Assembly: GCA_964017185.1 (NCBI GenBank)
Contig: OZ024882.1
Location: 35,636,488-35,700,487 of the forward strand
DNA from: Rugalucina vietnamica
Taxonomy: Eukaryota; Mollusca; Bivalvia; Lucinida; Lucinidae
Length of the DNA stretch: 64,000 nt
Direction: 5' to 3'
Under the pieces are notes generated by a model. It did no database searches and was not told the origin of the DNA. It worked only from the letters and a program-made list of their open reading frames with translations. The translations under genes were made by a program, and so were the position numbers. Shown piece by piece: positions 9,328 to 50,100 of the stretch (position 1 is the stretch's first letter; the number at the start of each line of letters is the position of its first letter).

Positions 9328-9351
9328 TCCGTCCGTCCGTCCGTCCGTCCG

Positions 9352-9383
<32 letters not shown>
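9328..9383. repeat. (GTCC)n-(TTTC)n microsatellite
   Basis: Six GTCC-type units pass directly into about eight TTTC units. A second, imperfect C/T-rich run follows at 9460-9508. Confidence 0.9.
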
Positions 9384-9792: not shown

Positions 9793-9963
9793 GCAGAGGC
9801 GGATCCAGGATTTCTGAAAGGGGGGTTCAAATCCACAAAGGGGGGTTCGTTTCCAACAATTTACCTGATTTTTCATAAATTTTCCCATGAAATTGAAAGA
9901 ATTAACTTCCAGAGGGGGGTTCAAGCGAACCCCCCGAACCCCCTCTAAATCCGCCACTGAGGA
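9793..9963. mobile_element. Small MITE with GCGGAT ends
   Basis: Ends 'gaggcggatccaggattt' (9796) and 'aaatccgccactgagg' (to 9961) are imperfect inverted repeats. The interior has G-runs on the left (aaggggggttc, twice) and the complement on the right (gaaccccccgaacccc). A related left end occurs at about 61235. Confidence 0.55.
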
Positions 9964-10252
9964 GACAGCTTAGTTGTTTGTTTGGTATTCCGGTTTATCG
10001 TCAATATTTAATTTCTGTTAGATGGTGATTTCGGTTAATCACCTGTGTAATGTAGCCGGTAGACATAGTTTTGATCGTGTCAGAGCAATTTTTTTTTCAA
10101 ATATCATTTTAATATCTTTTATTTTGCCCTTTATAACAATAACACAAGCCCTTAAACTTAATTTTGAGAGTGATTTCAGTGATTTCTGGGGTGATTTCGG
10201 TGATTTCGTAGTGATTTCGGTGATTTCGGTTAATCGTCTCACCGCTTGTTGG

Positions 10253-15094: not shown

Positions 15095-16320
15095 TTTATG
15101 TACAGCTCCTTTTCATAAGTTTAGTACATAGCGATTTGTTTCATAAGTATTAGCATAGCAGTACCAAATTTGAATCTTGGCAAAATTTTTATTGAGTGTT
15201 TGCAGATTTGAACGGATTTCGCTATGTTTAACCTTATACATAGAACTATTCACTGATTGTAACATTTTAGATTTTGATCGATCAATTTATAAATAGTAAC
15301 ACATTAAAATGACAGGCAAAATATCATAACTTCTGGGATACAAATATCAACTTTAACATTGATTTCATACACTTTAAGAAATATTTAACCAAAAACAGAT
15401 TATATTGTTACATTGGCATATCACCCAGAGGACTACACCTAACATAATATTTGATCTACCCTTGGTATATTCAAGTTTATTGAAGCTTGAAATATTGTAC
15501 CCTACTAGCCGTGGAACACCATAGTATACAATCAGTCAACGCGGTGGCGTAGTGGTAGAGCGTCGGACTCCGAATCTTGAGGTCCTGGGTTCGAACTCCA
15601 CAAGCGTCACCGTGTTGTGTCCTTGAGCAAGGCACATCTACTCCCTACAGTACTGGTTAAACCCAGGAAGCGTTGGCTCCGTCCCGACATGACTGAAAAA
15701 TTGTTGACTGGGACGTAAAGCCTCAACACAAACAAACAATCAGTCAACGTTTGATACGTAATAACACGTACAATCGTTTGTATTTACACATTACACTGGT
15801 CAAACAGTTGCATGGGTAAATATTTAATCCCAAGGACGGCGCTCGAAAAGGTGCTGTGATACAAAATGGCGAAAAGACAGTCCAAACAAGGTACGGCTGT
15901 CTCGTAGGATGCAAGATTTCAAGCTTCGATAACCTCAACTGAACACAGGGTAGACCAAATATTATGTAAGGTGTAGTCTACTGGACGCTCTGTTATTTCA
16001 TTGAAATAATAAATTTGTAGTTCAAACTTTCCTGTAGTGTGAGAAATCAATGTGAACATTGACATATGTGTCACAGAAGTTATGTTATTTCGTTTATCGT
16101 ATTTTATGTGCCATTATCTATTTAAAAATCGATCAAAATCTGAAGTGTTACAATCAGTGAATATTTCTATGTATTAGAATTGGCATAGCGAAATCCGTTC
16201 AAATCTGCAAACATTCAATAAAATTTTGCCAAGCTTCAAGTACAGGCACTGCTATGCCAATACTTATGAAACAAATCGCTATGTACTAAACTTTTGAAAC
16301 GGAGCTGTACACAATGCATA
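15095..16320. mobile_element. 1.2-kb foldback element with arms of about 415 bp
   Basis: 15095-15512 is the imperfect reverse complement of 15903-16320. Anchors include 'gtacagctcc' / 'ggagctgtac' at the tips, 'ttgcagatttgaacggattt' and 'cgctatg', 'gattgtaac', and 'aatatttgatctaccc' near the inner ends. The loop of about 390 bp contains a younger SINE. No transposase. Arm divergence (roughly 15-20%) indicates an old insertion. Confidence 0.75.
15528..15749 (+). mobile_element. S2 tRNA-derived SINE with 14-bp target duplication
   Basis: The body at 15542-15735 is flanked by ACAATCAGTCAACG (15528-15541 and 15736-15749). The head reads like a tRNA: A box TGGCGTAGTGGTAGAGCG, B box GGTTCGAACTCC. 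After it come 'gtgtccttgagcaaggcac', 'cccaggaagcgttggctcc' and the tail 'gactgggacgtaaagcctca', then (ACAA)n. The intact TSD and polymerase III boxes mean a relatively recent LINE-mobilised insertion. Confidence 0.9.
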
Positions 16321-18455: not shown

Positions 18456-20510
18456 TTAGATACACTTGTCAAAAAGTTGGAAAAAGATCATACATTTACT
18501 GAACTTGATTATAGAATTACTGAAGAAGAAATTAAAGTTGCAATTTCAAGTCTTAAAGCAAACAAAGCTGTAGGGTTAGATAGAATTTCAAATGAAATGA
18601 TTAAAGCTGGTAGTACATTTATGATACCATACATTAATAAGATTTTTAACTTGATATTTTCAACAGGGCATTATCCAAAACAGTGGGCTTCTGCTTACAT
18701 AAAACCACTTCTTAAGAAAGGCGATCCTAAATTACCTGAAAATTACAGGGGAATAGCTATCAACCCTAGCATTGCAAAATTATTTAACATCATATTAAAT
18801 AAAAGAATTGATAAATTTCTTACAGATAGAGATTGCATTGATTCATGTCAAATTGGATTTAGTAAGAATGCTAGAACATCTGATCATATGTTTGTTTTAA
18901 AATGTCTTATTGATAAATATGCGTCGTCTAATGGAAGCAAATTGTATTCATGTTTTATTGATTTTAAAAAGGCTTTCGACACGGTAATACATCCAGGTAT
19001 CAGATACAAACTGCTCCAGCTAGGCATAGGAGGTTGCTTTTATAAAATAATTGATAACATGTATTTGAATAGTACCCTATGCATCAAAGTTGGGGATGAA
19101 ACAACTGATTTCTTTAAATCAAGTGTTGGTGTACGACAGGGCGATGTATTGAGCCCTAATTTATTTAAGATTTTTGTTAACGATATTCCTAAATATTTAT
19201 CAGGCAGCATTGATGTTGTTGAACTAAACGGAAAAAATATTGATTGCCTTCTATATGCTGATGATTTTATTTTGTTTTCAAGTAGTTCTATCGGATTACA
19301 GCAAAGACTCAATTCCTTATCAAAATTTTGTAAGGACTGGTGCCTCGATGTAAATGTTGAAAAAACTAAAATTCTCATATTTAACAAGACAGGTAGGCTT
19401 TGTAATGAATCATTTGATTTTGATAATGCTCAATTAGAATGTGTTCAACATTACCGTTATTTAGGAGTATATTTCTCTGCTAGTGGAGTATTCAGTTACG
19501 GAATTGACGATATATATCAAAAAGCGTCTAAAGCATCATTTAAAATAACGAAATCGACTGCTTCAGCTGACCCGAGTATACAAACAAGCATTAATTTATA
19601 TGATCATCTGATAAAGCCAATAGTTTTGTATGCTTCAGAAATATGGGGAATTTTCAAGACAAATACAGCACGGTGTAAGAAAAATGACGATTTTTTGTTG
19701 GAAAGCATATATGCTGAAAACATTGCTGATAAGTCCCATATAAGATTTTTAAAATACATATTAGGGGTCAATAAAAATGCTTCCAATTTAGCTGTTTTGT
19801 CAGAAACAGGAAGATATCCGCTGTATATTTCAATTGTTTTATCTATAGTCAAATATTTACATGGACTAGAAAATGGTAATTCAGAATTGCTGCATCATGC
19901 ATATGTTGTTTCAAAAACACTTCATTTTCAGGGCGTTCAAACATGGTACTCATCAGCAATGTTCATACTAAAGGAAATGCAGCTTGATATATCTTGCCTC
20001 AGAAATATGACTCTATACCAGATAACTGAAGTTGTTAAACGCCGACTAATAAAAACCTTTTTAGCCAGCTGGGACAAGAAAAGAACCGAGGCCTTTATTT
20101 CAGGAAAATTAGATACATATTTTGGCATCAAAAAGGCCTTTGAAAGGGAACCATATTTATGTATGAGTAAATTTTCTTTGCGTAAGGCTCTTTGTAAACT
20201 TAGGATAAGTGCACATCAGTTAATGATTGAATTAGGCAGGTACAAGAAAAATAAATTACAGAGAGATGAAAGAATATGCAAAAAATGTGACACTGGTAAT
20301 GTTGAAGATGAGTTTCACTTCCTTTTTGAATGTTCAAATTACAACATTGAAAGACGTGATTTTTTCACTACAATTAACTCAAAAAACATTTTATTTGCAT
20401 CTATGACGAGTAAACAAAAATTTGAATGGTTATTTATTCAAGAAAATATCAACGTATTGGAAGATTTTGCATTATTCATAAACAACTGTTTTCAGAAACG
20501 ATCTGCATAG
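18456..20510 (+). CDS. Reverse transcriptase of a non-LTR retrotransposon, 5'-truncated
   Basis: A single open frame of about 680 codons with no start of its own; the first in-frame ATG-like reading begins around LEKDHTF at 18477. Numbering from 18477, the RT core is complete: LPENYRGIAI (86-95), IDFKKAFDTV with both aspartates (161-170), VRQGDVLSPN (219-228), and the catalytic box LLYADDF (258-264). Toward the C-terminus, ICKKCDTGN...DEFHFLFEC forms the CX2C...H...C knuckle found after the RT in jockey/CR1-type ORF2 proteins. The N-terminal APE endonuclease is missing. The frame is free of stops, so insertion is recent, but the copy cannot mobilise itself. Clade (CR1, jockey or relative) is not resolved by eye. 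Confidence 0.88.
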   Translation, partial: LDTLVKKLEKDHTFTELDYRITEEEIKVAISSLKANKAVGLDRISNEMIKAGSTFMIPYINKIFNLIFSTGHYPKQWASAYIKPLLKKGDPKLPENYRGIAINPSIAKLFNIILNKRIDKFLTDRDCIDSCQIGFSKNARTSDHMFVLKCLIDKYASSNGSKLYSCFIDFKKAFDTVIHPGIRYKLLQLGIGGCFYKIIDNMYLNSTLCIKVGDETTDFFKSSVGVRQGDVLSPNLFKIFVNDIPKYLSGSIDVVELNGKNIDCLLYADDFILFSSSSIGLQQRLNSLSKFCKDWCLDVNVEKTKILIFNKTGRLCNESFDFDNAQLECVQHYRYLGVYFSASGVFSYGIDDIYQKASKASFKITKSTASADPSIQTSINLYDHLIKPIVLYASEIWGIFKTNTARCKKNDDFLLESIYAENIADKSHIRFLKYILGVNKNASNLAVLSETGRYPLYISIVLSIVKYLHGLENGNSELLHHAYVVSKTLHFQGVQTWYSSAMFILKEMQLDISCLRNMTLYQITEVVKRRLIKTFLASWDKKRTEAFISGKLDTYFGIKKAFEREPYLCMSKFSLRKALCKLRISAHQLMIELGRYKKNKLQRDERICKKCDTGNVEDEFHFLFECSNYNIERRDFFTTINSKNILFASMTSKQKFEWLFIQENINVLEDFALFINNCFQKRSA

Positions 20511-26884: not shown

Positions 26885-27555
26885 ATTGCACGCCGGTGGG
26901 TCGGGCGTCAGACTCTATGATGGCCCCGACTTAAAGCTATTCATTTTAGTCGGTTGGGGCCGGAGCTTCTTGTCTGTTGCTTGGCCCACCGGGGTCCAAC
27001 TGGTGTTTTTCTTTTGCTCCGGAGTTAGTAGGTTATTCGGCGCCCAGGGATCTCTATCGTCGGGCAGCTTACTCAATCTGTGAGTCCTGGTTTTTGATTC
27101 ATCAGGATGTTTATAATGATTTATTTGTTTGTTCTTGATGATTCATTGACTAGTTAGAGATTCACCACGAGGACCGAAGAACTAAGTAAACGTTATGAAC
27201 CACTGCAGAAGCTGAGGGTGAAGTTAGGTACCTGTAAAACTGGTTTAAGCCCGCCAGTAACTTTGTGTTCCTGATCGTTCCAAGTCGATACTTCTGTGGT
27301 GGTTCTTTTTGTTTTATGTCTTGGTGTTTAAAATTTTTGTGCTGTTAGCGCCTTATGTATGTTTTCATATTTTAGTTAAGTTAAGGTAACTGAGTGGCCA
27401 CCTTTTGGGAAAATAGCTGCTCATTCGGCTTACGATATGTTTCATGGTATAAGTACCTGATTGTTAGTTTGGGTTTTTTTCCCACCTCGGTTTTTGGAGT
27501 GGGAATCTTTTTCTGATTGCGCCTTTTCCTGATCTTTGCCTACTTGTACCTTTTT
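26885..27555 (+). repeat. Unclassified dispersed repeat R5 with GC-rich leader
   Basis: 27131-27555 is nearly duplicated at 49678-50100 ('gaccgaagaactaa', 'cgttatgaaccact', 'cccgccagtaactttg', 'gatcgttccaagtcgatact', 'gctgctcattcggcttacg'). Here it has an extra GC-rich leader (26885-27090; 'cgccggtgggtcgggcg', 'ggcccaccggggtcc'). No reading frame is conserved between the two copies, and no TIR or tRNA boxes are visible. Confidence 0.6.
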
Positions 27556-27785: not shown

Positions 27786-27816
27786 TAAGCAAATTTTCAG
27801 TAATTTTTCGTAGGTC

Positions 27817-28056
27817 AAAAAAGTTAGCAGCTTGGCAGCATGGCAGGACGAAATTAGTAAATTAGCAGGATGGCCGTACGGCTGGTTAAGTAAGTTAGCA
27901 GCATGGCAGTATGGCCGAAGGAAATGTCAATTAACCAGTGTGGTCGTACAAAAGACAAAAACGTAACATTAATAAAATAATTAAAATGCTCACAAATAAT
28001 AAAAAAAAAATATATCTTATTTGCAAAATTCGTCCTGTTCGCAGGATGAATATCCG
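27817..28056. repeat. Left outer flank of the giant foldback
   Basis: Reverse complement of 45148-45425 at roughly 85-90%. Its outer half is itself reiterated ('agttagcagcttggcagc', 'agttagcagcatggcagt'), a shorter 40-bp-scale repeat related in wording to the satellite monomer. Confidence 0.75.
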
Positions 28057-31000
28057 GACAGATGGGATTTCTGGAGAACCGTTCAATGTAGGAAAACGCT
28101 TTATATCTCTAAATGCATGCGCTGGTAGGGCTAACTGTCGAGCTGTATGGATTTTCATCGTCTTGGCGGAACGGTATCGGCATAAGGCAAATTTCGTCCT
28201 GCTAGCAGCATGAAAATGACCAGCAGCATGGGATTTCTGGAGAACCGTTCAATGTAGGAAAACGCTTTATATCTCTAAATGCACGCGCTGGTAGGGCTAA
28301 CTGTCGAGTAGTATAGCAGTATGGATTTTCAAAGTCTTGGCGGAACGGTGTCGGCAAAAGGCAAATTTCATCCTGCTAGCAGCACGAAAATGACCAGCAG
28401 CATGGGATTTCTGGAAAACCGTTCAATGTAGGAAAACGCTTTATATCTCTAAATGCATGCGCTGGTAGGGCTAACTGTCGAGTAGTATAGCAGTATGGAT
28501 TTTCATCGTCTTGGCGGAACGGTATCGGCAAAAGGCAAATTTCGTCCTGCTAGCAGCATGAAAATGACCAGCAGCATGGGATTTCTGGAGAACCGTCCAA
28601 TGTAGGAAAACGCTTTATATCTCTAAATACATGCGCTGGTAGGGCTAACTGTCGAGTAGTATAGCAGTATGGATTTTCAAAGTCTTGGCGGAACGGTGTC
28701 GGCAAAAGGCAAATTTCATCCTGCTAGCAGCACGAAAATGACCAGCAGCATGGGATTTCTGGAGAACCGTTCAATGTAGGAAAACGCTTTATATCTCTAA
28801 ATGCATGCGCTGGTAGGACTAACTGTCGAGTAGTATAGCAGTGTGGATTTTCATCGTCTTGGCGGAACGGTATCGGCAAAAGGCAAATTTCATCCTGCTA
28901 GCAGCATGAAAATGACCAGCAGCATGGGATTTCTGGAGAACCGTCCAATGTAGGAAAACGCTTTATATCTCTAAATACATGCGCTGGTAGGGCTAACTGT
29001 CGAGTAGTATAGCAGTATGGATTTTCAAAGTCTTGGCGGAACGGTGTCGGCAAAAGGCAAATTTCATCCTGCTAGCAGCACGAAACTGACCAGCAGCATG
29101 GGATTTCTGGAGAACCGTTCAATGTAGGAAAACGCTTTATATCTCTAAATGCATGCGCTGGTAGGGCTAACTGTCGAGTAGTATAGCAGTATGGATTTTC
29201 ATCGTCTTGGCGGAACGGTATCGGCAAAAGGCAAATTTCGTCCTGCTAGCAGCATGAAAATGACCAGCAGCATGGGATTTCTGGAGAACCGTCCAATGTA
29301 GGAAAACGCTTTATATCTCTAAAAACATGCGCTGGTAGGGCTAACTGTCGAGTAGAATAGCAGTATGGATTTTCAAAGTCTTGGCGGAACGGTGTCGGCA
29401 AAAGGCAAATTTCATCCTGCTAGCAGCACGAAAATGACCAGCAGCATGGGATTTTTGGAGAACCGTTCAATGTAGGAAAACGCTTTATATCTCTAAATGC
29501 ATGCGCTGGTAGGGCTAACTGTCGAGTAGTATAGCAGTATGGATTTTCATCGTCTTGGCGGAACGGTATCGGCAAAAGGCAAATTTCGTCCTGCTAGCAG
29601 CATGAAAATGACCAGCAGCATGGGATTTCTGGAGAACCGTCCAATGTAGGAAAACGCTTTATATCTCTAAATACATGCGCTGGTAGGGCTAACTGACGAG
29701 TAGTATAGCAGTATGGATTTTCAAAGTCTTGGCGGAACGGTGTCGGCAAAAGGCAAATTTCATCCTGCTAGCAGCACGAAAATGACCAGCAGCATGGGAT
29801 TTCTGGAGAACCGTTCAATGTAGGAAAACGCTTTATATCTCTAAATGCATGCGCTGGTAGGGCTAACTGTCGAGTTGTATAGCAGTATGGATTTTCATCG
29901 TCTTGGCGGAACGGTATTGGCAAAAGGCAAATTTCGTACTGCTAGCAGCATGAAAATGACCAGCAGCATGGGATTTCTGGAGAACCGTCCAATGTAGGAA
30001 AACGCTTTATATCTCTAAATACATGCGCTGGTAGGGCTAACTGTCGAGTAGTATAACAGTATGGATTTTCAAAGTCTTGGCGGAACGGTGTCGGCAAAAG
30101 GCAAATTTCATCCTGCTAGCAGCACGAAAATGAACAGCAGCATGGGATTTCTGGAGAACCGTTCAATGTAGGAAAACGCTTTATATCTCTAAATGTATGC
30201 GCTTGTAGGGCTAACTGTCGAGTAGTATAACAGTATTGATTTTCACCGTCTTGGCGGAACGGTGTCGGCAAAAGGCAAATTTCATCCTGCTAGCAGCACG
30301 AAAATGACCAGCAGCATGGGATTTCTGGAGAACCGTTCAATGTAGGAAAACGCTTTATATCTCTAAATGCATGCGCTGGTAGGGCTAACTGTCGAGTAGT
30401 ATAGCAGTATGGATTTTCATCGTCTTGGCGGAACGGTATCGGCAAAAGGCAAATTTCGTCCTGCTAGCAGCATGAAAATGACCAGCAGCATGGGATTTCT
30501 GGAGAACCGTCCAATGTAGGAAAACGCTTTATATCTCTAAATACATGCGCTGGTAGGGCTAACTGTCGAGTAGTATAGCAGTATGGATTTTCAAAGTCTT
30601 GGCGGAACGGTGTCGGCAAAAGGCAAATTTCATCCTGCTAGCAGCACGAAAATGACCAGCAGCATGGGATTTCTGGAGAACCGTTCAATGTAGGAAAACG
30701 CTTTATATCTATAAATGCATGCGCTGGTAGGGCTAACTGTCGAGTAGTATAGCAGTATGGATTTTCATCGTCTTGGCGGAACGGTATCGGCAAAAGGCAA
30801 ATTTCGTCCTGCTAGCAGCACGAAAATGACCAGCAGCATGGGATTTCTGGAGAACCGTTCAATGTAGGAAAACGCTTTATATCTATAAATGCATGCGCTG
30901 GTAGGGCTAACTGTCGAGTAGTATAGCAGTATGGATTTTCATCGTCTTGGCGGAACGGTATCGGCAAAAGGCAAATTTCGTCCTGCTAGCAGCATGAAAA

Positions 31001-33335
31001 TGACCAGCAGCATGGGATTTCTGGAGAACCGTCCAATGTAGGAAAACGTTTTATATCTCTAAATACATGCGCTGGTAGGGCTAACTGTCGAGTAGTATAG
31101 CAGTATGGATTTTCAAAGTCTTGGCGGAACGGTGTCGGCAAAAGGCAAATTTCATCCTGCTAGCAGCACGAAAATGACCAGCAGCATGGGATTTCTGGAG
31201 AACCGTTCAATGTAGGAAAACGCTTTATATCTCTAAATGCATGCGCTGGTAGGGCTAACTGTCGAGTAGTATAGCAGTGTGGATTTTCATCGTCTTGGCG
31301 GAACGGTATCGGCAAAAGGCAAATTTCGTCCTGCTAGCAGCATGAAAATGACCAGCAGCATGGGATTTCTGGAGAACCGTCCAATGTAGGAAAACGCTTT
31401 ATATCTCTAAATACATGCGCTGGTAGGGCTAACTGTCGAGTAGTATAGCAGTATGGATTTTCAAAGTCTTGGCGGAACGGTGTCGGCAAAAGGCAAATTT
31501 TATCCTGCTAGCAGCACGAAACTGACCAGCAGCATGGGATTTCTGGAGAACCGTCCAATGTAGGAAAACGCTTTATATCTCTAAATACATGCGCTGGTAG
31601 GGCTAACTGTCGAGTAGAATAGCAGTATGGATTTTCAAAGTCTTGGCGGAACGGTGTCGGCAAAAGGCAAATTTCATCCTGCTTGCAGCACGAAAATGAC
31701 CAGCAGCATGGGATTTCTGGAGAACCGTTCAATGTAGGAAAACGCTTTATATCTCTAAATGCATGCGCTGGTAGGGCTAACTGTCGAGTAGTATAGCAGT
31801 ATGGATTTTCATAGTCTTGGCGGAACGGTATCGGCAAAAGGCAAATTTCGTCCTGCTAGCAGCATGAAAATGACCAGCAGCATGGGATTTCTGGAGAACC
31901 GTCCAATGTAGGAAAACGCTTTATATCTCTAAATACATGCGCTGGTAGGGCTAACTGTCGAGTAGTATAGCAGTATGGATTTTCAAAGTCTTGGCGGAAC
32001 GGTGTCGGCAAAAGGCAAATTTCATCCTGCTAGCAGCACGAAAATGACCAGCAGCATGGGATTTCTGGAGAACCGTTCAATGTAGGAGAACGCTTTATAT
32101 CTCTAAATGCATGCGCTGGTAGGGCTAACTGTCGAGTAGTATAGCAGTATGGATTTTCATCGTCTTGGCGGAACGGTATCGGCAAAAGGCAAATTTCGTC
32201 CTGCTAGCAGCATGAAAATGACCCGCAGCATGGGATTTCTGGAGAACCGTCCAATGTAGGAAAACGCTTTATATCTCTAAATACATGCGCTGGTAGGGCT
32301 AACTATCGAGTAGTATAGCAGTATGGATTTTCAAAGTCTTGGCGGAACGGTGTCGGCAAAAGGCAAATTTCATCCTGCTAGCAGCACGAAAATGACCAGC
32401 AGCATGGGATTTCTGGAGAACCGTTCAATGTAGGAAAACGCTTTATATCTCTAAATACATGCGCTGGTAGGGCTAACTGTCGTGTAGTATAGCAGTATGG
32501 ATTTTCATCGTCTTGGCGGAACGGTATCGGCAAAAGGCAAATTTCGTCCTGCTAGCAGCATGAAAATGACCAGCAGCATGGGATTTCTGGAGAACCGTCC
32601 AATGTAGGAAAATGCTTTATATCTCTAAATACATGCGCTGGTAGGGCTAACTGTCGAGTAGTATAGCAGTATGGATTTTCAAAGTCTTGGCGGAACGGTG
32701 TCGGCAAAAGGCAAATTTCATCCTGCTAGCAGCACGAAAATGACCAGCAGCATGGGATTTCTGGAGAACCGTTCAATGTAGGAAAACGCTTTATATCTCT
32801 AAATGCATGCGGCTGGTAGGGCTAACTGTCGAGTAGTATAGCAGTATGGATTTTCATCGTCTTGGCGGAACGGTATCGGCAAAAGGCAAATTTCGTCCTG
32901 CTAGCAGCATGAAAATGACCAGCAGCATGGGATTTCTGGAGAACCGTCCAATGTAGGAAAACGCTTTATATCTCTAAATACATGCGCTGGTAGGGCTAAC
33001 TGTCGAGTAGTATAGCAGTATGGATTTTCAAAGTCTTGGCGGAACGGTGTCGGCAAAAGGCAAATTTCATCCTGCTAGCAGCACGAAAATGACCAGCAGC
33101 ATGGGATTTCTGGAGAACCGTTCAATGTAGGAAAACGGTTTATATCTCTAAATACATGCGCTGGTAGGGCTAAATGTCGAGTAGTATAGCAGTATGGATT
33201 TTCATAGTCTTGGCGGAACGGTATCGGCAAAAGGCAAATTTCGTCCTGCTGACAGCATGAAAATGACCAGCAGCATGGGATTTCTGGAGAACCGTCCAAT
33301 GTAGGAAGACGGTTTATATCTCTAAATACATAATG
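28057..33335 (-). repeat. 174-bp satellite array, left arm, about 30 monomers
   Basis: 'gggatttctgg' recurs at 28230, 28404, 28578, 28752 and so on, exactly 174 bp apart almost throughout. Two monomer types alternate: one with 'ttttcatcgtcttgg' and 'ggtatcgg', the other with 'ttttcaaagtcttgg' and 'ggtgtcgg', making a 348-bp dimer. The order breaks at about 30244 (hybrid), 30766-30940 (two of the first type) and 31462-31635 (two of the second). The inner end stops mid-monomer at 'ctctaaatacat' (33335). Strand is given relative to the right array. Confidence 0.92.
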
Positions 33336-34169
33336 TACATGCTAAACCATCCAACGCTATTTCAACGTCAGCGTCTTCCAGGACCATGACTTTGGAAATA
33401 ATGAGAATGTGTTATAAAGAGGTATATTAGATGTGAATGGAAAGCAACAATTACTCCTAATACGTCATGCATACGCCACAGCAGTGAAATACTCAATGAT
33501 TCAAATGTACTTTACCCATCTCTCCAACCCCCCCCCCCCCCTCAAAAGAGGAAAAAGAAAAGAAAAAAAAAGATACTTGAGTGGCGGGGAACACGTTCGC
33601 ATATGACACAGCCGAATATTAACTGAAACTAAACCGTGACCAGCAAGGTTTTCCGTAGAAGCGCAAATATAACTGAATATATAGTTTGGCAAATAGGTCA
33701 TTATATGGGCGGCAACTTAACAATTCATATCTGGGCGTGGTCGACTAGTCCGGCATCTGTTCAAGTAGGGAGATTTTTGAAAAGTCGAACACAGTCAGCC
33801 TAGACTGTTGTCACAAATTTACCAGATACCTGTAATATTTTGTCCAATCCTATATGAATTAGACAAATTCGTATTTCATTCTTATTTTCTAACTTTAATC
33901 TTTTAACTGTATACCTTTGGCTTAAGGTAGATCAAACCCAATAGCGAATTCATGAGGTAACGCCCATACAGTTACCAATTTGCTGAATTATACAACATGC
34001 GAATATAAATGAACATGAGTAGCATGCACTAAACATGCGACCAGTTGTGCGATATTCAACCAGGTGCTTCCTCGTATATATACTAAACAAAAGTGAAAAT
34101 GTTACACTCGTATTCTAACTTGAATTTCTGTCTCTCATTTCATTTGATTGCAACTTTAGAGGTCGTCAC
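33336..34169. other. Spacer start, no gene
   Basis: AT-rich non-repetitive DNA with a C-run (33529-33541). No open frame or match to other parts of the window was seen. Confidence 0.4.
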
Positions 34170-34836
34170 ACCTAAGCGGAAGTCCCTCAACGCAGACTTC
34201 CGTTAAGTTGCGAACTTGAGTTATGCAATATTCGTTTTAATTCGTTTGTCTGCGTTTCAATACGTTGTAGAGCGTTGGTGGTGTTCGCATGAATGCGTTT
34301 GCTTGCGTGAGCATTCGTCAGGATGAGTCTTACCTGCCAGAAAATTTTAAACAGGTGTGTTGAAAACAATTTTTCGCATATGTGCGTTTCACTTCGTTCA
34401 CCAATCGCAAGTCTTCGCAAAGCATTCGTTATCGTGCGTAATCGTGCTTAATAGCTCTGTCACACATTCACGTATCAGCGGCGTATCGCTCACGTATCTA
34501 TGAAAATGTCGATACGCCGAGGTCTGAACCGTATTTTGCTCGGGAGACGTATGTACCACGTACGTGTGACGTTCCTGCAACGTTCCCGTGGCGTATACGT
34601 GACGTATCTGTATTCGTATGGAATTTCACTTTCGTATGTACGGCGTATCAATGCGTATGTGATACGTACGTGTGACGTATGTAAGGCGTATGAAGTGTAC
34701 GCGTGACGTATCTACGGCGTATGTACTGCGTTCCATTCTTATCTGCGGCGTATCTGTTCTGTACCAATTGCTTTTTAATACCTATGAGAACAAACGGTTG
34801 TGTTCACTTTGCTCATGCAATTCGCACATTATAATT

Positions 34837-35074
34837 ATGAGCCGCCGCATGGAAAAAAAACAACAATCTGCATAGGCAAAAACAAAGGCGCCGATCAGCT
34901 TCGCATTAACTGCGGAGCTGATCAGTGCCTTTGTTTTTTCTACATGGATAGTACAATTCCTCTACTTTCTAAATCCAAAATTTCCAGCCTCTTACCATCT
35001 TCTGAGACTGTACAGGCCGGTTTGTGTCAGACCTGATCGGAACCCAAATTGTTGGTTTCTCACGCACAGGCTCA
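34837..35074. mobile_element. F1 inverted-repeat element inside a foldback
   Basis: Ends 'gagccgccgcatggaaaa' and 'tttctcacgcacaggctcat'; hairpin 'gatcagcttcgcattaactg' / 'gagctgatcag' intact. Confidence 0.75.
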
Positions 35075-35079
35075 TAAAA

Positions 35080-35340
35080 GAGGTCGAAGATGCCACCGGA
35101 GAAATCTAGATAATCTAGATTAACACCGAAAAAAACCGAGGTGGTGGTGGGGGAACATCTTCAAGCTCTCCATCCTGGTCGTAAGACCACATGAACAAAG
35201 ACGGAGGCTACACCAAGTGTAGCCATGAAAGAACCCTGCACGACACCCCGAACCGTGAGAAACATTTGATCCATGACTTCGGAAAAACGAAAACATACAT
35301 ATAGAAGCATTAAGATTCTCTTGGAACGCCACAAAATATT
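35080..35340. other. Unique GC-richer segment inside the foldback
   Basis: Unlike the CGTA-word arms around it, this segment is non-repetitive and of more even composition. The minus strand has a frame reading MDQMFLTVRGVVQGSFMATL and onward, broken by a stop near 35160. It might be a captured host fragment; identity is unknown. Confidence 0.25.
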
Positions 35341-36273
35341 CCTAATACTCCTAATACTCACACATACTCCACAGTAGCGAAACGAACGTAGCACATACGT
35401 AGCACATACGCCATTGATACGCGAGATACGCCACACGTACGTCGCTGATACGCCGTAGATACGAAAAGACATTCGAGGATACGCCATACATACGTCACAC
35501 ATACGTAGCAGATACGAAAGGTACGCTGTACATACGTCACGGTTACGTGGCATTTTAACCGCTACGTACGTGTGGCGTATCAGGAGTATGAGCTACGTAT
35601 CTACGACGTACCTGCCACGTTGCTTTCGTATGTACCACGTATGTGTGACGTATGTACGGCGTATCGGGCCTGCTACGTACGTGCTACGAATTTTTAAGTG
35701 CACATAAAAAAAACGTAGCACCTCGGCGTATGAGGAGTATGAGCTACGTATCGAAGAGTATGAGCTACGTATGCCCACGTATCTACGACGTACGTGTGAC
35801 GTACCTTTCGTATCTCGATACGCCGTAGATACGTGAGTCGATACGCGAATGTGTGACAGCCCCTATAAGGATTCACAACTAACTGTAAAATTGCATCATG
35901 CTATTAGGCTAATTTGCATATCAACTGAAGAGTTGCGCTTCAATGACGATTGCTTGCGCTCTTCAATGCACTGTACCGCTTACAAGCGCATTGTTGCGAA
36001 TCGAATCCGACGCATGAATGCGAAGTATTACGTTTAGTCAACGAACGCATACGGAGGGAAACTTTGACAAACAGATCCATGCGAAACGTAGCGTTGCACA
36101 TATATCGTAGCGTTGCGCAGAAGCCGTAGTCTTCGGGTTCGAAACATGTCTGTGCCAATTTAGTAGGTCTATATCTTTATTTCTCTACTTTAATATATAT
36201 ATATAACAATGGTTTAGTAGGACGTAAATTTCAATATTAACAAAATACTAAAACCCGGAATCGTATATGTATC

Positions 36274-37470
36274 AAGAATTTATCGTTTATAGCGGGTGCA
36301 ATTTAGATTCCTTATTAATTCCTTTAAAACGTAATATCTCTAAAGATTTTGTGGTTATGGCGTAAGGTGTAGTTTTATTTTCCAGCTATATTATTTTATT
36401 TAATATATTTTTTCTTAAATTCAACATCCATCCCAAGTTTTTCAAATGTGTATGAAAAATATATATTTCTAACTTCAAGGGTAGTTCCCCCCGAATTGGT
36501 CTTTTTTCATAATTCCCGGAATGTTAACTGATACCGGAATATAAGTTGCATTTATTTTATACTTTACAGTGAAACCCAATGTATATCAAAACTTGATAAA
36601 ATTGGTATTTTCATTGATATGAAATTTCACTGATATCAAATCTCACTGATATCAAAAGTCACTAGTGACTGATATCAGCCTATATCGTCACTGTAATGAC
36701 GTCAGATTTTTTGGATTACTTCTGACGTTTCCATTTACTTGACGTCATTAAATGTGTCTCACTTCAGAAATTCAAACGCCTATAGCGCCGTTATTTATGA
36801 ACGAAAACATAAAGTGTGGATATTCATTTTCTTAGTTAGAACATAAGGAACAATGTGGTACCAAAATTATTCGTGTTTTCAAAAAAATTTTGTTTTTGCA
36901 TTTTCAGCTATACTATGTAAAGTATAAAATAAATACAGATACAGAACAAACGTTATGTTTACGTCTTACGCTAAATACTCTGCCGTATAAGCACAATACG
37001 TAAACAATGGTAAAGGTGTTTCACGTTTACTTGAGTGCGTTAATTTAAAACTGAATTCTTGCGAGTTGTGCAGGTATATACTACTCAAAAGAATCCAGCA
37101 ATTATCGCTTCCCAAACTAAGATCTATCACATAGAATGAACATGTATTCTTTAAACAAAATACCTTTCCGTAATCTAAAATAAATGCAATACTTATATTG
37201 CGGTATCAGACGAACGTTCCGGGATTTATGAACAAAAAGACTATTTCAAGGGGAACTACTGCCGTAGAAATTAAAAAATACATCTTTTTCACATACATTT
37301 GAATAACCTGAGATGGATGGTGCGTTTAAGAAAGAAATATATCAAATAAAATAATATAGCTTGAAAAAACAACTACATCCTACGACATAACCACAAAACT
37401 TTGGAGATATTACGTTTAAAATAAATTAATGAGGAATCTGATTCGCACCCGCTATATTCCATAAATTCTT
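36274..37470. mobile_element. 1.2-kb foldback with 300-bp arms
   Basis: 36274-36567 is the imperfect inverse of 37171-37470 ('aagaattta' ... 'tatagcgggtgc', 'aacgtaatatctc', 'ttgtggttatg', 'agctatattattttatttaa'). The inner part is AT-rich and contains a cluster of ACTGATATCA words (about 36625-36690). No coding sequence. Confidence 0.7.
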
Positions 37471-37489
37471 TATACATTTACTTATTATT

Positions 37490-37640
37490 TTATTTATGTA
37501 TAGCACATTGATTCGTACATATCTAAAACGTCAAACGTCAGATACAGCTTTAGTATACAACATTAAAGTAAAAGAACATGGATTCGTACAGATCTAAAAC
37601 GCAAAATGTCAGATAAAGCCTTAAACTGTTGCAACAGCAT
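37490..37640 (+). repeat. Direct duplication of about 65-70 bp
   Basis: 'gattcgtacatatctaaaac' with 'gtcagataca' at about 37510, and 'gattcgtacagatctaaaac' with 'gtcagataaa' at about 37578. The stretch to 37935 holds nothing else. Confidence 0.5.
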
Positions 37641-37935
37641 GGAGAATGTCTTGCAAAGGCTAAAATTAACTACGCCATCAAAAAGAATATGCCATAAAAT
37701 CTAAAAAGTATTAACCGTGTCAGAACAACACATACCAACAGACAAGAAAATAAAAAGGTAGATCAGCATAGGTAACAGAAGAAAAAACTGCCTCCACATT
37801 TTTATTACTTAGAAAGTTCAATCCCTCCCTGTGTCTCAAGCTAAATGAGTCTTACCGAAGAACAGCTTATTTAGAGTCTGACCTGGACGCATATCCTGTA
37901 CGAGTCCCGTCGTGGTACGGTTCATATATATCCCA

Positions 37936-38330
37936 TCAAGCATTCAAAGATGGTTGTAAAATTCTAATGAAAAGCTTTTCTTTTTCCTCCAACATACTGC
38001 CATTTGCATTTGAAACACTGTAAATGGGGAAGATATTGCAGAACAAGAGTAAAAATGTTAACATTTAAAACCCTCAAGTTTGCATCATTTGTTTGTTGTC
38101 TATGCACTGTCATTCTTTGTTTGACCATGTTTGTAGTTTTCCCGATGTAGAATTCGCCACAGTTTTTACACGTGGGAGTGTAGACTACAAACTCAGTTTT
38201 ACAGTTCATGTTTGATTTGACTTCGAAGTGACGAAAGTTTTTTCTTTCCATTGTATTAAATCTGGACATGTTTTACACCTCTTATCACTACATTTCGACA
38301 TCCTACCTTCCAATATAAACGGCAAGAGAC
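37936..38330 (-). pseudogene. Penelope-like element, GIY-YIG endonuclease fragment
   Basis: Read on the minus strand, three frames each cover part of a typical C-terminus of a Penelope-like retroelement. These are KCSDKRCKTCPDL (about 38310-38270), then CKTEFVVYTPTCKNCGEFYIGKT and VKQRMTVHRQQTND (38210-38080), which are the zinc-binding and GIY-YIG nuclease region. After another shift comes MLEEKEKLFIRILQPSLNA, ending at the stop at 37936. At least two frameshifts make it non-functional. The upstream reverse transcriptase is absent; sequence past 38330 runs into the right satellite array (38375). Confidence 0.75.
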
Positions 38331-38374
38331 AACCCAAGAATCAACGTATCCTAACGTCTTCTAAATTTCACTCC

Positions 38375-41300
38375 AATATATTGGAAGGACGAAATTTGCC
38401 TTTTGCCGATACCGTTCCGCCAAGACTATGAAAATCCATACTGCTATACTACTCGACAGTTAGCCCTACCAGCGCATATATTTAGAGATATAAACCGCTT
38501 TCCTACATTGAAAGATTCTCCAGAAATCCCATGCTGCTGGTCATTTTCGTGCTGCTAGCAGGATGAAATTTGCCTTTTGCCGACACCGTTCCGCCAAGAC
38601 TTTGAAAATCCATACTGCTATACTACTCGACAGTTAGCCCTACCAGCGCATGTATTTAGAGATATAAACCGTTTTCCTACATTGGACGGTTCTCAAGAAA
38701 TCCCATGCTGCTGGTCATGTTCATGCTGCTAGCAGGACGAAATTTGCCTTTTGCAGATACCGTTCTGCCAAGACGATGAAAATCCATACTGCTATACTAC
38801 TCGACAGTGAGCCCTACCAGCGCATGCATTTAGAGATATAAAGCGTTTTCCTACATTGAACGGTTCTCCAGAAATCCCATGCTGCTGGTCATTTTCGTGC
38901 TGCTAGCAGGATGAAATTTGCCTTTTGCCGACACCGTTCCGCCAAGACTTTGAAAATCCATACTGCTATACTACTCGACAGTTAGCCCTACCAGCGCATG
39001 TATTTAGAGATATAAACCGTTTTCCTACATTGGACGGTTCTCCAGACATAGAGGAAAACGGTCATTTTCATGCTGCTAGCTGGACGAAATTTGCCTTTTG
39101 CCGATACCGTTCCGCCAAGACGATGAAAATCCATACTGCTATACTACTCGACAGATAGCCCTACCAGCGCATGCATTTAGAGATATAAAGCGTTTTCCTA
39201 CATTGAACGGTTCTCCAGAAATCCCATGCTGCTGGTCATTTTCATGCTGCTAGCAGGACGAAATTTGCCTTTTGCCGATACCGTTCCGCCAAGACTTTGA
39301 AAATCCATACTGCTATACTACTCGACAGTTAGCCCTACCAGCGCATGTATTTAGAGATTTAAAGCGTTTTCCTACATTGAACGGTTCTCCATAAATCCCA
39401 TGCTGCTGGTCATTTTCGTGCTGCTAGCAGGATGAAATTTGCCTTTTGCCGACACCGTTCCGCCAAGACTTTGAAAATCCATACTGCTATACTACTCGAC
39501 AGTTAGCCCTACCAGCGCATGTATTTAGAGATATAAACCGTTTTCCTACATTGGACGGTTCTCCAGAAATCCCATGCTGCTGGTCATGTTCATGCTGCTA
39601 GCAGGACGAAATTTGCCTTTTGCAGATACCGTTCTGCCAAGACGATGAAAATCCATACTGCTATACTACTCGACAGTGAGCCCTACCAGCGCATGCATTT
39701 AGAGATATAAAGCGTTTTCCTACATTGAACGGTTCCCCAGAAATCCCATGCTGCTGGTCATTTTCGTGCTGCTAGCAGGATGAAATTTGCCTTTTGCCGA
39801 CACCGTTCCGCCAAGACTTTGAAAATCCATACTGCTATACTACTCGACAGTTAGCCCTACCAGCGCATGTATTTAGAGATATAAACCGTTTTCCTACATT
39901 GGACGGTTCTCCAGACATAGAGGAAAACGGTCATTTTCATGCTGCTAGCTGGACGAAATTTGCCTTTTGCCGATACCGTTCCGCCAAGACGATGAAAATC
40001 CATACTGCTATACTACTCGACAGATAGCCCTACCAGCGCATGCATTTAGAGATATAAAGCGTTTTCCTACATTGAACGGTTCTCCAGAAATCCCATGCTG
40101 CTGGTCATTTTCATGCTGCTAGCAGGACGAAATTTGCCTTTTGCCGATACCGTTCCGCCAAGACTTTGAAAATCCATACTGCTATACTACTCGACAGTTA
40201 GCCCTACCAGCGCATGCATTTAGAGATTTAAAGCGTTTTCCTACATTGAACGGTTCTCCATAAATCCCATGCTGCTGGTCATTTTCGTGCTGCTAGCAGG
40301 ATGAAATTTGCCTTTTGCCGACACCGTTCCGCCAAGACTTTGAAAATCCATACTGCTATACTACTCGACAGTTAGCCCTACCAGCGCATGTATTTAGAGA
40401 TATAAACCGTTTTCCTACATTGGACGGTTCTCCAGAAATCCCATGCTGCTGGTCATGTTCATGCTGCTAGCAGGACGAAATTTGCCTTTTGCAGATACCG
40501 TTCTGCCAAGACGATGAAAATCCATACTGCTATACTACTCGACAGTGAGCCCTACCAGCGCATGCATTTAGAGATATAAAGCGTTTTCCTACATTGAACG
40601 GTTCCCCAGAAATCCCATGCTGCTGGTCATTTTCGTGCTGCTAGCAGGATGAAATTTGCCTTTTGCCGACACCGTTCCGCCAAGACTTTGAAAATCCATA
40701 CTGCTATACTACTCGACAGTTAGCCCTACCAGCGCATGTATTTAGAGATATAAACCGTTTTCCTACATTGGACGGTTCTCCAGACATAGAGGAAAACGGT
40801 CATTTTCATGCTGCTAGCTGGACGAAATTTGCCTTTTGCCGATACCGTTCCGCCAAGACGATGAAAATCCATACTGCTATACTACTCGACAGATAGCCCT
40901 ACCAGCGCATGCATTTAGAGATATAAAGCGTTTTCCTACATTGAACGGTTCTCCAGAAATCCCATGCTGCTGGTCATTTTCATGCTGCTAGCAGGACGAA
41001 ATTTGCCTTTTGCCGATACCGTTCCGCCAAGACTTTGAAAATCCATACTGCTATACTACTCGACAGTTAGCCCTACCAGCGCATGCATTTAGAGATTTAA
41101 AGCGTTTTCCTACATTGAACGGTTCTCCATAAATCCCATGCTGCTGGTCATTTTCGTGCTGCTAGCAGGATGAAATTTGCCTTTTGCCGACACCGTTCCG
41201 CCAAGACTTTGAAAATCCATACTGCTATACTACTCGACAGTTAGCCCTACCAGCGCATGTATTTAGAGATATAAACCGTTTTCCTACATTGGACGGTTCT

Positions 41301-44300
41301 CCAGAAATCCCATGCTGCTGGTCATTTTCATGCTGCTAGCAGGACGAAATTTGCCTTTTGCCGATACCGTTCCGCCAAGACTTTGAAAATCCATACTGCT
41401 ATACTACTCGACAGTTAGCCCTACCAGCGCATGCATTTAGAGATATAAAGCGTTTTCCTGCATTGAACGGTTCTCCAGAAATCCCATGCTGCTGGTCATT
41501 TTCGTGCTGCTAGCAGGATGAAATTTGACTTTTGCCGACACCGTTCCGCCAAGACTTTGAAACTCCATACTGCTATACTACTCGACAGTTAGCCCTACCA
41601 GCGCATATATTTAGAGATATAAACCGTTTTCCTACATTGGACGGTTCTCCAGAAATCCCATGCTGCTGGTCATTTTCATGCTGCTAGCAGGACGAAATTT
41701 GCCTTTTGCCGATACCGTTCCGCCAAGACGATGAAAATCCATACTGCTATACTACTCGACAGTGAGCCCTACCAGCGCATGCATTTAGAGATATAAAGCG
41801 TTTTCCTACATTGAACGGTTCTCCAGAAATCCCATGCTGCTGGTCATTTTTGTGCTGCTAGCAGGATGAAATTTGACTTTTGCCGACACTGTTCCGCCAA
41901 GACTTTGAAAATCCATACTGCTATACTACTCGACAGTTAGCCCTACCAGCGCATGTATTTAGAGATATAAACCGTTTTCCTACATTGGACGGTTCTCCAG
42001 ACATCGAGGAAAACGGTCATTTTCATGCTGCTAGCAGGACGAAATTTGCCTTTTGCCGATACCGTTCCGCCAAGACGATGAAAATCCATACTGCTATACT
42101 ACTCGACAGTTAGCCCTACCAGCGCATGTATTTAGAGATATAAACAGTTTTCCTACATTTGACGGTTCTCCAGAAATCCCATGCTGCTGGTCATTTTCAT
42201 GCTGCTAGCAGGACGAAATTTGCATTTTGCCGATACCGTTCCGCCAAGACTTTGAAAATCCATACTGCTATACTACTCGACAGTTAGCCCTACCAGCGCA
42301 TGCATTTAGAGATACAAAGCGTTTTCCTACATTGAACGGTTCTCCAGAAATCCCATGCTGCTGGTCATTTTCGTGCTGCTAGCAGGATGAAATTTGCCTT
42401 TTGCCGACACCGTTCCGCCAAGACTTTGAAAATCCATACTGCTATACTACTCGACAGTTAGCCCTACCAGCGCATGTATTTAGAGATATAAAACGTTTTC
42501 CTACATTGGACGGTTCTCCAGAAATCCCATGCTGCTGGTCATTTTCATGCTGCTAGCAGGACGAAATTTGCCTTTTGCCGATACCGTTCCGCCAAGACGA
42601 TGAAAATCCATACTGCTATTCTACTCGACAGTGAGCCCTACCAGCGCATGCATTTAGAGATATAAAGCGTTTTCCTACATTGAACGGTTCTCCAGAAATC
42701 CCATGCTCCTCGTCATTTTCGTGCTGCTAGCAGGATGAAATTTGCCTTTTGTCGACACCGTTCCGCCAAGACTTTGAAAATCCATACTGCTATACTACTC
42801 GACAGTTAGCCCTACCAGCGCATGTATTTAGAGATATAAACCGTTTTCCTACATTGGACGGTTCTCCAGAAATCCCATGCTGCTGGTCATTTTCATGCTG
42901 CTAGCAGGACGAAATTTGCCTTTTGCCGATACCGTTCCGCCAAGACGATGAAAATCCATACTGCTATACTACTCGACAGTTAGCCCTACCAGCGCATGCA
43001 TTTAGAGATATAAAGCGTTTTCCTACATTGAACGGTTCTCCAGAAATCCCATGCTGCTGGTCATTTTCGTGCTGCTAGCAGGATGAAATTTGCCTTTTGC
43101 CGACACCGTTCCGCCAAGACGATGAAAATCCATACTGCTATACTACTCGACAGTTAGCCCTACCAGCGCATGCATTTAGAGATATACATGTAAAGCGTTT
43201 TCCTACATTGAACGGTTCTCCAGAAATCCCATGCTGCTGGTCATTTTCATGCTGCTAGCAGGATGAAATTTGCCTTTTGCCGACACCGTTCCGCCAAGAC
43301 GATGAAAATCCATACTGCTATACTACTCGACAGTTAGCCCTACCAGCGCATGCATTTAGAGATATAAACCGTTTTCCTACATTGGACGGTTCTCCAGAAA
43401 TCCCATGCTGCTTGTCATTTTCATGCTGCTAGCAGGACGAAATTTGCCTTTTGCCGATACCGTTCCGCCAAGACTATGAAAATCCATACTGCTATACTAC
43501 TCGACAGTTAGCCCTACCAGCGCATGCATTTAGAGATATAAAGCGTTTTCCTACATTGAACGGTTCTCTAGAAATCCCATGCTGCTGGTCATTTTCGTGC
43601 TGCTAGCAGGATGAAATTTGCCTTTTGCCGACACCGTTCCGCCAAGACTTTGAAAATCCATACTGCTATACTACTCGACAGTTAGCCCTACCAGCGCATG
43701 TATTTAGAGATATAAACCGTTTTCCTACATTGGACGGTTCTCCAGAAATCCCATGCTGCTGGTCATTTTCATGCTGCTAGCAGGACGAAATTTGCCTTTT
43801 GCCGATACCGTTCCGCCAAGACGATGAAAATCCATACTGCTATACTACTCGACAGTTAGCCCTACCAGCGCATGCATTTAGAGATATAAAGCGTTTTCCT
43901 ACATTGAACGGTTCTCCAGAAATCCCATGCTGCTGGTCATTTTCGTGCTGCTAGCAGGATGAAATTTGCCTTTTGCCGACACCGTTCCGCCAAGACGATG
44001 AAAATCCATACTGCTATACTACTCGACAGTTAGCCCTACCAGCGCATGCATTTAGAGATATACATGTAAAGCGTTTTCCTACATTGAACGGTTCTCCAGA
44101 AATCCCATGCTGCTGGTCATTTTCATGCTGCTAGCAGGATGAAATTTGCCTTTTGCCGACACCGTTCCGCCAAGACGATGAAAATCCATACTGCTATACC
44201 ACTCGACAGTTAGCCCTACCAGCGCATGCATTTAGAGATATAAACCGTTTTCCTACATTGGACGGTTCTCCAGAAATCCCATGCTGCTGGTCATTTTCAT

Positions 44301-45147
44301 GCTGCTAGCAGGACGAAATTTGACTTTTGCCGATACCGTTCCGCCAAGACTATGAAAATCCATACTGCTATACTACTCGACAGTTAGCCCTACCAGCGCA
44401 TGCATTTAGAGATATAAAGCGTTTTCCTACATTGAACGGTTCTCTAGAAATCCCATGCTGCTGGTCATTTTCGTGCTGCTAGCAGGATGAAATTTGCCTT
44501 TTGCCGACACCGTTCCGCCAAGACTTTGAAAATCCATACTGCTATACTACTCGACAGTTAGCCCTACCAGCGCATGTATTTAGAGATATAAACCGTTTTC
44601 CTACATTGGACGGTTCTCCAGAAATCCCATGCTGCTGGTCATTTTCATGCTGCTAGCAGGACGAAATTTGCCTTTTGCCGATACCGTTCCGCCAAGACGA
44701 TGAAAATCCATACTGCTATACTACTCGACAGTTAGCCCTACCAGCGCATGCATTTAGAGATATAAAGCGTTTTCCTACATTGGACGGTTCTCCAGAAATC
44801 CCATGCTGCTGGTCATTTTCGTGCTGCTAGCAGGATGAAATTTGCCTTTTGCCGACACCGTTCCGCCAAGACTTTGAAAATACATACTGCTATACCACTC
44901 GACAGTTAGCCCTACCAGCGCATGTATTTAGAGATATAAACCGTTTTCCTACATTGGACGGTTCTCCAGAAATCCCATGCTGCTGGTCATTTTCATGCTG
45001 CTAGCAGGACGAAATTTGCCTTTTGCCGATACCGTTCCGCCAAGACTTTGAATATCCATACTGCTATACTACTCGACAGTTAGCCCTACCAGCGCATGTA
45101 TTTAGAGATATAAACCGTTTTCCTACATTGAAAGATTCTCCAGAAAT
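38375..45147 (+). repeat. 174-bp satellite array, right arm, about 39 monomers
   Basis: Mirror orientation of the left array, starting mid-monomer at 'ggacgaaatttgcc' and ending 'ccagaaatcccat'. Besides the two-type alternation, private variants recur at 869-bp spacing (five monomers less one base). 'ttgcagataccgttctgcc' appears at 38751, 39620, 40489 and 'gacatagaggaaaacgg' near 39045, 39914, 40783. A second five-monomer block carrying a 6-bp insertion ('gatatacatgtaaagcg' at 43181 and 44057) is duplicated at 876 bp. Confidence 0.92.
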
Positions 45148-45425
45148 CCCATCTTTCCGGATATTCATCCTGCGAAGAGGACGAATTTTGCAAATTAGAT
45201 ATATTTTTTTTATTTTGTGAGCATTTTAGTTATTTTAATGTTACGTTTTTGTCTTTTGTACGACCACACTGGTTAAATGATATTTCATTCAGCCATACTG
45301 CCATGCTGCTAACTTTCTAATTTCGTCCTGCCGTGCTGCCAAGCTGCTAACTTTACCGAATTCATTCTGCCATGCTGCTATGCTGCTAACTTTACCAAAT
45401 TCATTCTGCCATGCTGCTAACTTTT
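45148..45425. repeat. Right outer flank of the giant foldback
   Basis: Longer than the left flank by about 40 bp because the tip repeat ('atgctgctaactttaccaaa' and 'ttcattctgcc') is present in one or two extra copies. Confidence 0.75.
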
Positions 45426-45477
45426 CGGCGCCATTTTTCGTGGCACGCACGATTCGTGCTTCAAACCTAAGCAATAG

Positions 45478-49677: not shown

Positions 49678-50100
49678 CTTCTTGATGATTCATTTACTAG
49701 TTAGAGATGATTCACCACTAGGACCGAAGAACTAACTAAATGTTATGAACCACTACAGAAGCTGAGGGTGAGGTTACGGCCGTGTAAAATCGATTTAAAC
49801 CCGCCAGTAACTTTGTATTACTGATCGTTCCAAGTCGATACTTCTGTGGTGGTTCTTTTTGTTTTATGTCTTGTTGTTTAAAATATTTTTGTGCTGTTGG
49901 CGCCTTATGTATGTTTGCATATTTTTAGTTAAGGTAACTGAGTGGCCACCTATTGGGAAAATAGCTGCTCATTCGGCTTACGAAATGTTTTCATGGTATA
50001 AGTGCCTGATTGTTAGTTTGGTTTTTTCCCACCTTGGTTTTTGGAGTGGGAGTCTTTTTCTGATTGCGCCTTTTCCTGATCTTTGCCTACTTGTACTTTT
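49678..50100 (+). repeat. Dispersed repeat R5, second copy
   Basis: About 90% identical to 27131-27555 but lacking the GC-rich leader; preceded instead by the duplicated F4 tail. Confidence 0.7.

Follow-up and report, generated by a model that had tools for sequence, protein, structure and literature searches.

FB elements are foldbacks with tandem-repeat arms, in which the repeats are short, and they are flanked by target duplications of 9 bp. The P superfamily, with Galileo, has target duplications of 7 bp, and Helentrons and HINEs are not known to have any. The foldbacks described in the literature consulted are mostly a few kilobases (kb) long or less, and it has been suggested that satellites born in them end mobility. 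Tm1 of Meloidogyne has been assigned to the Phantom subclass of the Mutator/Foldback elements (PMC3169594), and in oysters Helentrons are the described carriers of satellite-like arrays (PMC7492417). Among the papers listed by the literature searches, there was neither a giant satellite-armed foldback nor such an element in a bivalve. Here, we describe a foldback of 17,621 bp with kb-long satellite arms in a window of 64,000 nucleotides from the lucinid bivalve Rugalucina vietnamica (C14:35636488-35700487 of the host assembly, which comprises 1.09 Gb in 47 contigs; positions given without a contig are window coordinates). It is one copy of a dispersed unit whose left and right tips are constant and most of whose paired copies have 9-bp scars of their own, and its arms and spacer are common to different sites as one unit. 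We consider it very probable that the element is a foldback DNA transposon of the non-autonomous kind, which a Mutator-like (MULE/Phantom-type) transposase most likely mobilises in trans.

Structure and limits of the element

The first-pass annotation of this stretch had described a foldback in which two oppositely oriented arrays of a 174-bp monomer, 5.3 and 6.8 kb long, surround a spacer of about 5 kb, and this layout was borne out both by self-alignment and by Tandem Repeats Finder (TRF). In the comparison of the window with itself, positions 27820-33331 align in inverted orientation with positions 45393-39867 over 5,538 bp at 94.6% identity. According to TRF, the left arm (28062-33331, + strand, 5.3 kb) contains 30.3 copies of the monomer and the right arm (38386-45152, - strand, 6.8 kb) contains 38.8 copies in inverted orientation. 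Monomers of types A and B alternate in both arms, the variants differ between the arms, and higher-order repeats of five monomers are present in the right arm only. The unlike variants and the one-sided higher-order repeats argue against a recent one-off inversion and against a read-foldback artefact. The spacer measures 5,054 bp (33332-38385) and is counted as part of the element because it recurs in copies on C11, in the same direction, and on C14, inverted.

The arrays are enclosed by two flanking domains. The left one (27812-28061, + strand) consists of the 7-bp asymmetric tip AGGTCAA, GTTAGCAGCWTGGCAG subterminal repeats and about 130 bp leading into the array, and the right one (45153-45432, - strand) has the tip GGCGCCG, reading inward, followed by 38-39-bp subterminal repeats, one more than on the left. 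After these tips both sides continue with AAAAGTTAGCAGC, such that the asymmetric tips lie outside the inverted repeat. The outer flanks (27820-28061 and 45153-45393) are inverted with respect to each other and 85.5% identical. They had been annotated as mirrored unique flanks; mirrored they are, but they recur throughout the genome.

The limits of the element, placed at 27817 and 45425 in the first-pass annotation, are instead set by a target duplication. The identical 9-mer ATTTTTCGT is found at positions 27803-27811 and 45433-45441, on both sides exactly 11 bp outside the first GTTAGCAGC, and this 9-bp duplication, together with the same tips in other copies, delimits an element that runs from 27812 to 45432. 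When 20,000 pairs of positions were drawn at random from the window, 0.07% had a common 9-mer at a symmetric offset of at most 25 bp, and 0.49% had one anywhere within 35 x 35 bp.

Flanks and monomers are related in sequence. Firstly, local alignment identified a left-flank stretch (28023-28053, + strand) that shares 26 of 31 bases with the monomer; the score was 37 for the left flank (maximum of 300 shuffles, 24) and 32 for the right flank (maximum of 300 shuffles, 27). Secondly, the word TAGCAGCATGG, with at most one mismatch, occurs 67 and 93 times in the two arrays, 4 and 5 times in the flanks, and nowhere else in the window. The monomer repeats may therefore provide additional putative transposase sites. 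A second word, AATTTCGTCCTGC, is also common to terminal repeats and monomers.

Dispersed copies with paired ends and target duplications

The left flank has at least 43 matches in the genome (40 of 72 candidates scored). With up to two mismatches, the left tip AGGTCAAAAAAGTTAGCAGC has 35 matches (27 of them exact; two for the backwards-read control), and the right tip GGCGCCGAAAAGTTAGCAGC has 40 (31 exact; none for the control). In the first-pass annotation it had been reasoned that flanks occurring only once genome-wide would point to an artefact or a one-off inversion; these counts show the opposite. In the 21 loci whose left ends were compared, the tip has one constant starting base, beyond which the outer sequences look unrelated.

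We then considered ends less than 100 kb apart as pairs, starting from 32 left and 34 right ends. Six of the 40 right-type matches, belonging to a GGCGACG subtype, were excluded from pairing, as were the four left matches with two mismatches, three of which, by eye, sit in another repeat. A left end that lacks one A was included, and one locus with the left flank and a changed tip (L037) was excluded. The search for mirrored flanks elsewhere in the genome, which had been proposed along with the first description, thus returned 29 mirrored end pairs, separated by 570 bp to 63,434 bp (median 22,176 bp) and together spanning 730,025 bp; 26 of them are at least 13.5 kb long, and only two are shorter than 2 kb. 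A perfect 9-bp target duplication flanks 25 of the 29 pairs, and one more pair, on C9, has an 8-bp duplication. By comparison, identical 9-mers were found in none of 812 deliberately wrong end pairings. The paired ends and their duplications support the giant non-autonomous transposon that the first-pass annotation had listed among its options.

Comparison of the copies provided information on how the two ends are inherited. Left flanks are on average 97.2% identical to each other (lowest value 93.9%; 29 copies) and right flanks 96.5% (lowest value 87.0%; 11 copies), the identity between left and right flanks being 86%; ends from six loci, comprising remnants and subtypes, were dropped from this count, and three subtype ends were counted apart. 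According to these within-side and between-side identities, left and right ends form two distinct lineages moving as a pair and are not generated by mirror copying at the individual sites. Within a monomer type, identity between arms of different copies (95.4-95.8%) is nearly as high as within one arm (96.1-96.2%). One monomer variant separates the two arms in the window (0 of 15 left versus 13 of 16 right B monomers); it was rejected as a left/right marker, being found also in the left arms of other copies.

Variable interiors, small forms and remnants

At the fetched loci, the shortest arm measures 1.2 kb and the longest exceeds 9 kb; four arms extend beyond the end of the fetched stretch. 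One right arm, for which 8.5 kb of array was read, would reach about 16.7 kb if the unread 8 kb up to the flank are also array. Three copies illustrate the variation of the middle region. At C11:1220593-1235553, arms of 7.9 and 1.4 kb enclose the window spacer in the same direction (blocks 94.6-97.4% identical); at C14:5412298-5426777, arms of 6.1 and 3.0 kb enclose the inverted window spacer, which is gapped (blocks 89-95% identical); and at C4:9343152-9349818 there is no spacer and arms of 3.3 and 2.9 kb abut. All three copies have perfect target duplications. Furthermore, the left inner array junction of the window copy recurs in loci L013, L015 and L018, and its right inner junction recurs in L009 and L024, where it lies behind a left-type flank. 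The family also includes small forms of 1,654 bp (seven monomers) and 570 bp (about one monomer), both with perfect duplications. Thus, some copies have an inverted interior, another interior or none at all between ends and target duplications that are intact. Three features of the foldback class are present: terminal inverted repeats that are long and contain tandem repeats, in the window and in other copies; a transposition scar of 8-10 bp (9 bp at 25 of the 29 pairs, 8 bp at one); and a variable, non-coding middle region, which may be the same spacer, the inverted spacer, another interior or absent.

Six further ends were inspected for repeats within 600 bp. Two are clear remnants: 23 bp of a left end lie between two copies of ATCTATATA, and 92 bp of a right end between two copies of ATAAAATTT, in both cases exact 9-bp repeats. 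A third, of 47 bp, is a candidate, with one mismatch in its flanking repeat; another has a one-mismatch repeat 274 bp away, which is likely due to chance, and the remaining two have no flanking repeat within 600 bp.

The window spacer itself contains other elements: a nested degenerate palindromic repeat region rich in ACGTATC (34457-35857), with a dispersed repeat at about 34856-35079; a nested inverted-repeat element with arms of about 300 bp that are 82% identical (36263-37481); and, on the - strand, a fragment with a GIY-YIG endonuclease domain (37964-38269; Pfam PF01541, E 5.3e-06), for which we infer a Penelope-like origin. Frames resembling this fragment were seen by eye in L009 and L011.

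The right-end subtype with the tip GGCGACG is represented by L038-L041, L078 and L079, of which L038 and L039 have the same outside sequence. In the two ends of this type that were read further inward, some two to three monomers give way to sequence unrelated to them, in one case with a frame that, by eye, is reverse transcriptase-like. The interiors of L011, L019, L021, L024 and L082 contain repeats that resemble the 174-bp monomer when translated (by eye), and perhaps these represent another foldback family, older than the one described here and nested within it.

Superfamily, mechanism and weighing of the evidence

The 9-bp duplication and the Tm1-like asymmetric tips outside the inverted repeat are both characteristic of Mutator elements of the Phantom/FB branch. 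Superfamily assignment is based on duplication length and tips because no transposase was found in the interiors read; the family has the build of a Mutator-type foldback and would most likely function as one. Among the window-spacer frames of at least 65 aa, 10 of 24 were analyzed with Pfam, and only the GIY-YIG fragment scored above the cut-off; by eye, the frames of the fetched interiors seem to derive from repeats or represent GIY-YIG fragments, Pfam having been applied to window frames only. A source of transposase in trans may exist elsewhere, as the host genome contains at least 59 MULE-domain matches (all 123 first-look candidates scored), 55 of which have no stop inside the match. One of these matches (C11:23831480-23831782) lies in a 715-aa open frame, 5.9 kb from the unpaired left end L010 (C11:23825573) and on its outer side, which may be chance.

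In the mechanism that we envisage, the transposase would recognise the tips and the GTTAGCAGC/TAGCAGCATGG repeats, which occur in subterminal repeats and monomers, as putative sites, make a 9-bp staggered cut and insert the whole foldback. Unequal exchange would then lengthen and shorten the arrays, recombination between the arms could flip the spacer, and failed or imprecise excision might give rise to the short single-end remnants.

Several observations weigh against such a transposon or against details of its proposed movement. First, three of the 29 pairs have no target duplication, and three left and five right ends have no partner. Second, pair lengths are distances in the assembly; most large interiors are unread, and one holds a stretch of N. 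Third, the register of the arrays is not conserved between copies, and the arrays may have differed in length when they were inserted. Unequal exchange that lengthens and shortens arrays would be compatible with this lack of register. Fourth, exchange between copies that are already inserted could, in principle, be the source of common interiors. Fifth, the AATTTCGTCCTGC match between terminal repeats and monomers in reverse orientation did not outscore the highest of 300 shuffles. Sixth, no transposase was noticed in the fetched interiors, whose longer frames were viewed by eye, and none of the 59 MULE matches lies inside the 29 element intervals. Finally, the right tip resembles Tm1 A2 at only three of seven positions (by eye; PMC3169594).

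Common array maps were also considered as proof that long arrays move and were rejected for this use: junction-anchored registers were overall no better than shifted ones, and long array matches at 98% identity or more were found out of register.

A more far-reaching possibility, which we put forward tentatively and with slightly less than even confidence, is that the kb-long satellite arms are working parts of the transposon, with monomers that serve in transposase recognition, and that entire elements of 13-58 kb move by cut-and-paste, thereby spreading and homogenising the satellite. The size distribution favours long mobile forms, and fluid arrays allow later growth. If true, whole-element transposition would contradict the idea that long arrays stop transposition, and satellite DNA would be able to travel as transposon arms. 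A family consisting mostly of 13-58-kb foldbacks, with arms up to more than 9 kb and clean scars at the majority of paired sites, makes it possible to test the dispersal of satellites by cut-and-paste and the way in which a transposase handles dozens of possible internal sites per arm. It also makes it possible to test what allows inverted repeats of this size to persist through replication and recombination, and the arms can flip cargo and provide inversion breakpoints.

Alternative explanations

The alternative that fares best, although we regard it as unlikely, has been proposed for Tetris: a foldback of few monomers moves, its arms lengthen after insertion, and the giant copies are dead. 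On the one hand, array order differs even among copies with the same spacer junction, the 1.65-kb and 0.57-kb copies have perfect duplications, and the authors of the Tetris study suggested that arrays of larger size may have interfered with transposition (PMC4079207). On the other hand, unless growth is fast, this model predicts the opposite of the observed lengths, with 26 of the 29 pairs at 13.5 kb or more and two below 2 kb; moreover, a spacer that is common to copies at different sites lies between both arms.

It is very improbable that the locus consists of two oppositely oriented, head-to-head elements of Helentron type (HINE/pearl). Monomer length and the layout of flank and array do resemble those of Cg_HINE, with monomers of 140-180 bp (PMC7492417). 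However, both arms are inside a unit bounded by the 9-bp duplication, the outer ends are mirrored, and the two inner junctions are unlike each other, yet recur in other copies; in the published description, the flanks of Cg_HINE differ structurally between left and right and its arrays have one orientation (PMC7492417). The duplications at 25 of 29 pairs lead us to reject this explanation.

We give just as little weight to an assembly or read-foldback artefact. Long inverted satellite arrays are difficult to assemble and the array lengths may be wrong, but the arms are unlike in length, variants and higher-order repeats, the ends and duplications recur at many loci, and the spacer is present at other loci with 3-11% divergence. 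Least probable of all are a single inversion of a satellite locus and a recombination-generated segmental palindrome. Either would account for inverted arrays as such, and one other copy does have its spacer inverted, but both are refuted by the dispersed copies, 29 pairs of which 25 have a 9-bp duplication of their own. The inverted satellite locus and the element-trapping recombination palindrome of the first-pass annotation survive only as secondary processes, the former seen in the spacer that is inverted between the arms of one copy and the latter in the other elements inside the spacer.

Other features of the window

A second foldback, of 2,569 bp, is located at 7676-10244. It has tandem-repeat arms of GAAATCACC type, and its tips, GGGTTAG and CGGTGAG, each lead into ACGATT. 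A perfect 9-bp duplication, CTTGTTGGC, flanks it and is absent elsewhere in the window on either strand. A further inverted-repeat element lies at 15096-16314; with those at 34457-35857 and 36263-37481, it makes the region rich in palindromic insertions. Just outside the giant element, a dispersed repeat is present at 27132-27553 and 49679-50100 (91% identity over 428 bp). An Rfam SECIS_1 match (26909-26976, + strand) scored 39.2 bits against a cut-off of 35, and the frame adjoining it resembles, by eye, a frame in the L010 interior; the match may therefore belong to a dispersed repeat and not to a selenoprotein gene. The window also contains a 677-aa open frame with a reverse-transcriptase domain (18477-20510, + strand) and a sulfotransferase-like frame of 423 aa (10778-12049, - strand).

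Comparison with known systems

The words of monomer and flank did not occur in the literature searched; words of monomer, flank or tip had no exact match in viral contigs, and prokaryote genome contigs contained no match to a monomer word. Nearest in design, likened by description alone, is Tetris of Drosophila virilis and D. americana, which has a flanking domain, tandem repeats of about 220 bp and a non-coding, variable middle (PMC4079207). Its target duplications are 8-10 bp long, the stretch common to flank and repeat measures 37 bp (31 bp here), and its repeats also occur in long satellite-like arrays of up to 66 copies (PMC4079207). In Tetris, however, the inverted repeats do not exceed 1,735 bp and three copies are structurally complete (PMC4079207), whereas the family described here has arms of 1.2 kb to more than 9 kb, 29 end pairs up to 63 kb, and asymmetric tips.

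Like Tm1, the family combines asymmetric 7-bp tips outside the inverted repeat with 9-bp duplications, and it shares with Tm1 a variable number of tandem motifs, unequal arms within an element and a mostly non-autonomous nature (PMC3169594). The left tip AGGTCAA matches five of the seven bases of the Tm1 A1 tip CGGTTAA (by eye; PMC3169594). Tm1 elements are nevertheless short, with arms of 1-9 units of a 14-bp motif, and one Tm1-A copy encodes a MULE transposase (PMC3169594), of which none was found in the fetched interiors. The left tip also agrees with the end of FB4 of Drosophila melanogaster in 10 of the first 12 and 13 of 20 bases (by eye; end taken from PMC9682801), although the quoted ends of FB4 are exact inverted copies of each other (PMC9682801) and the tips here differ.

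Among dispersed mobile elements that carry satellite-like arrays of 140-180 bp, the Cg_HINE/pearl Helentrons of oysters and mussels are similar in that property (PMC7492417). Their published description gives no mirrored arms (PMC7492417), whereas the copies reported here have mirrored arms and flanks, paired mirrored ends and 9-bp duplications, unlike a Helentron or HINE. Galileo of Drosophila, a member of the P superfamily, likewise has long, internally repetitive inverted repeats, in which several transposase-binding sites have been reported; in duplication length, the 9 bp of 25 of our 29 pairs set the family apart from that superfamily. Thus, the foldback kind itself is known, and what is new here is the size of the arms and of the elements.

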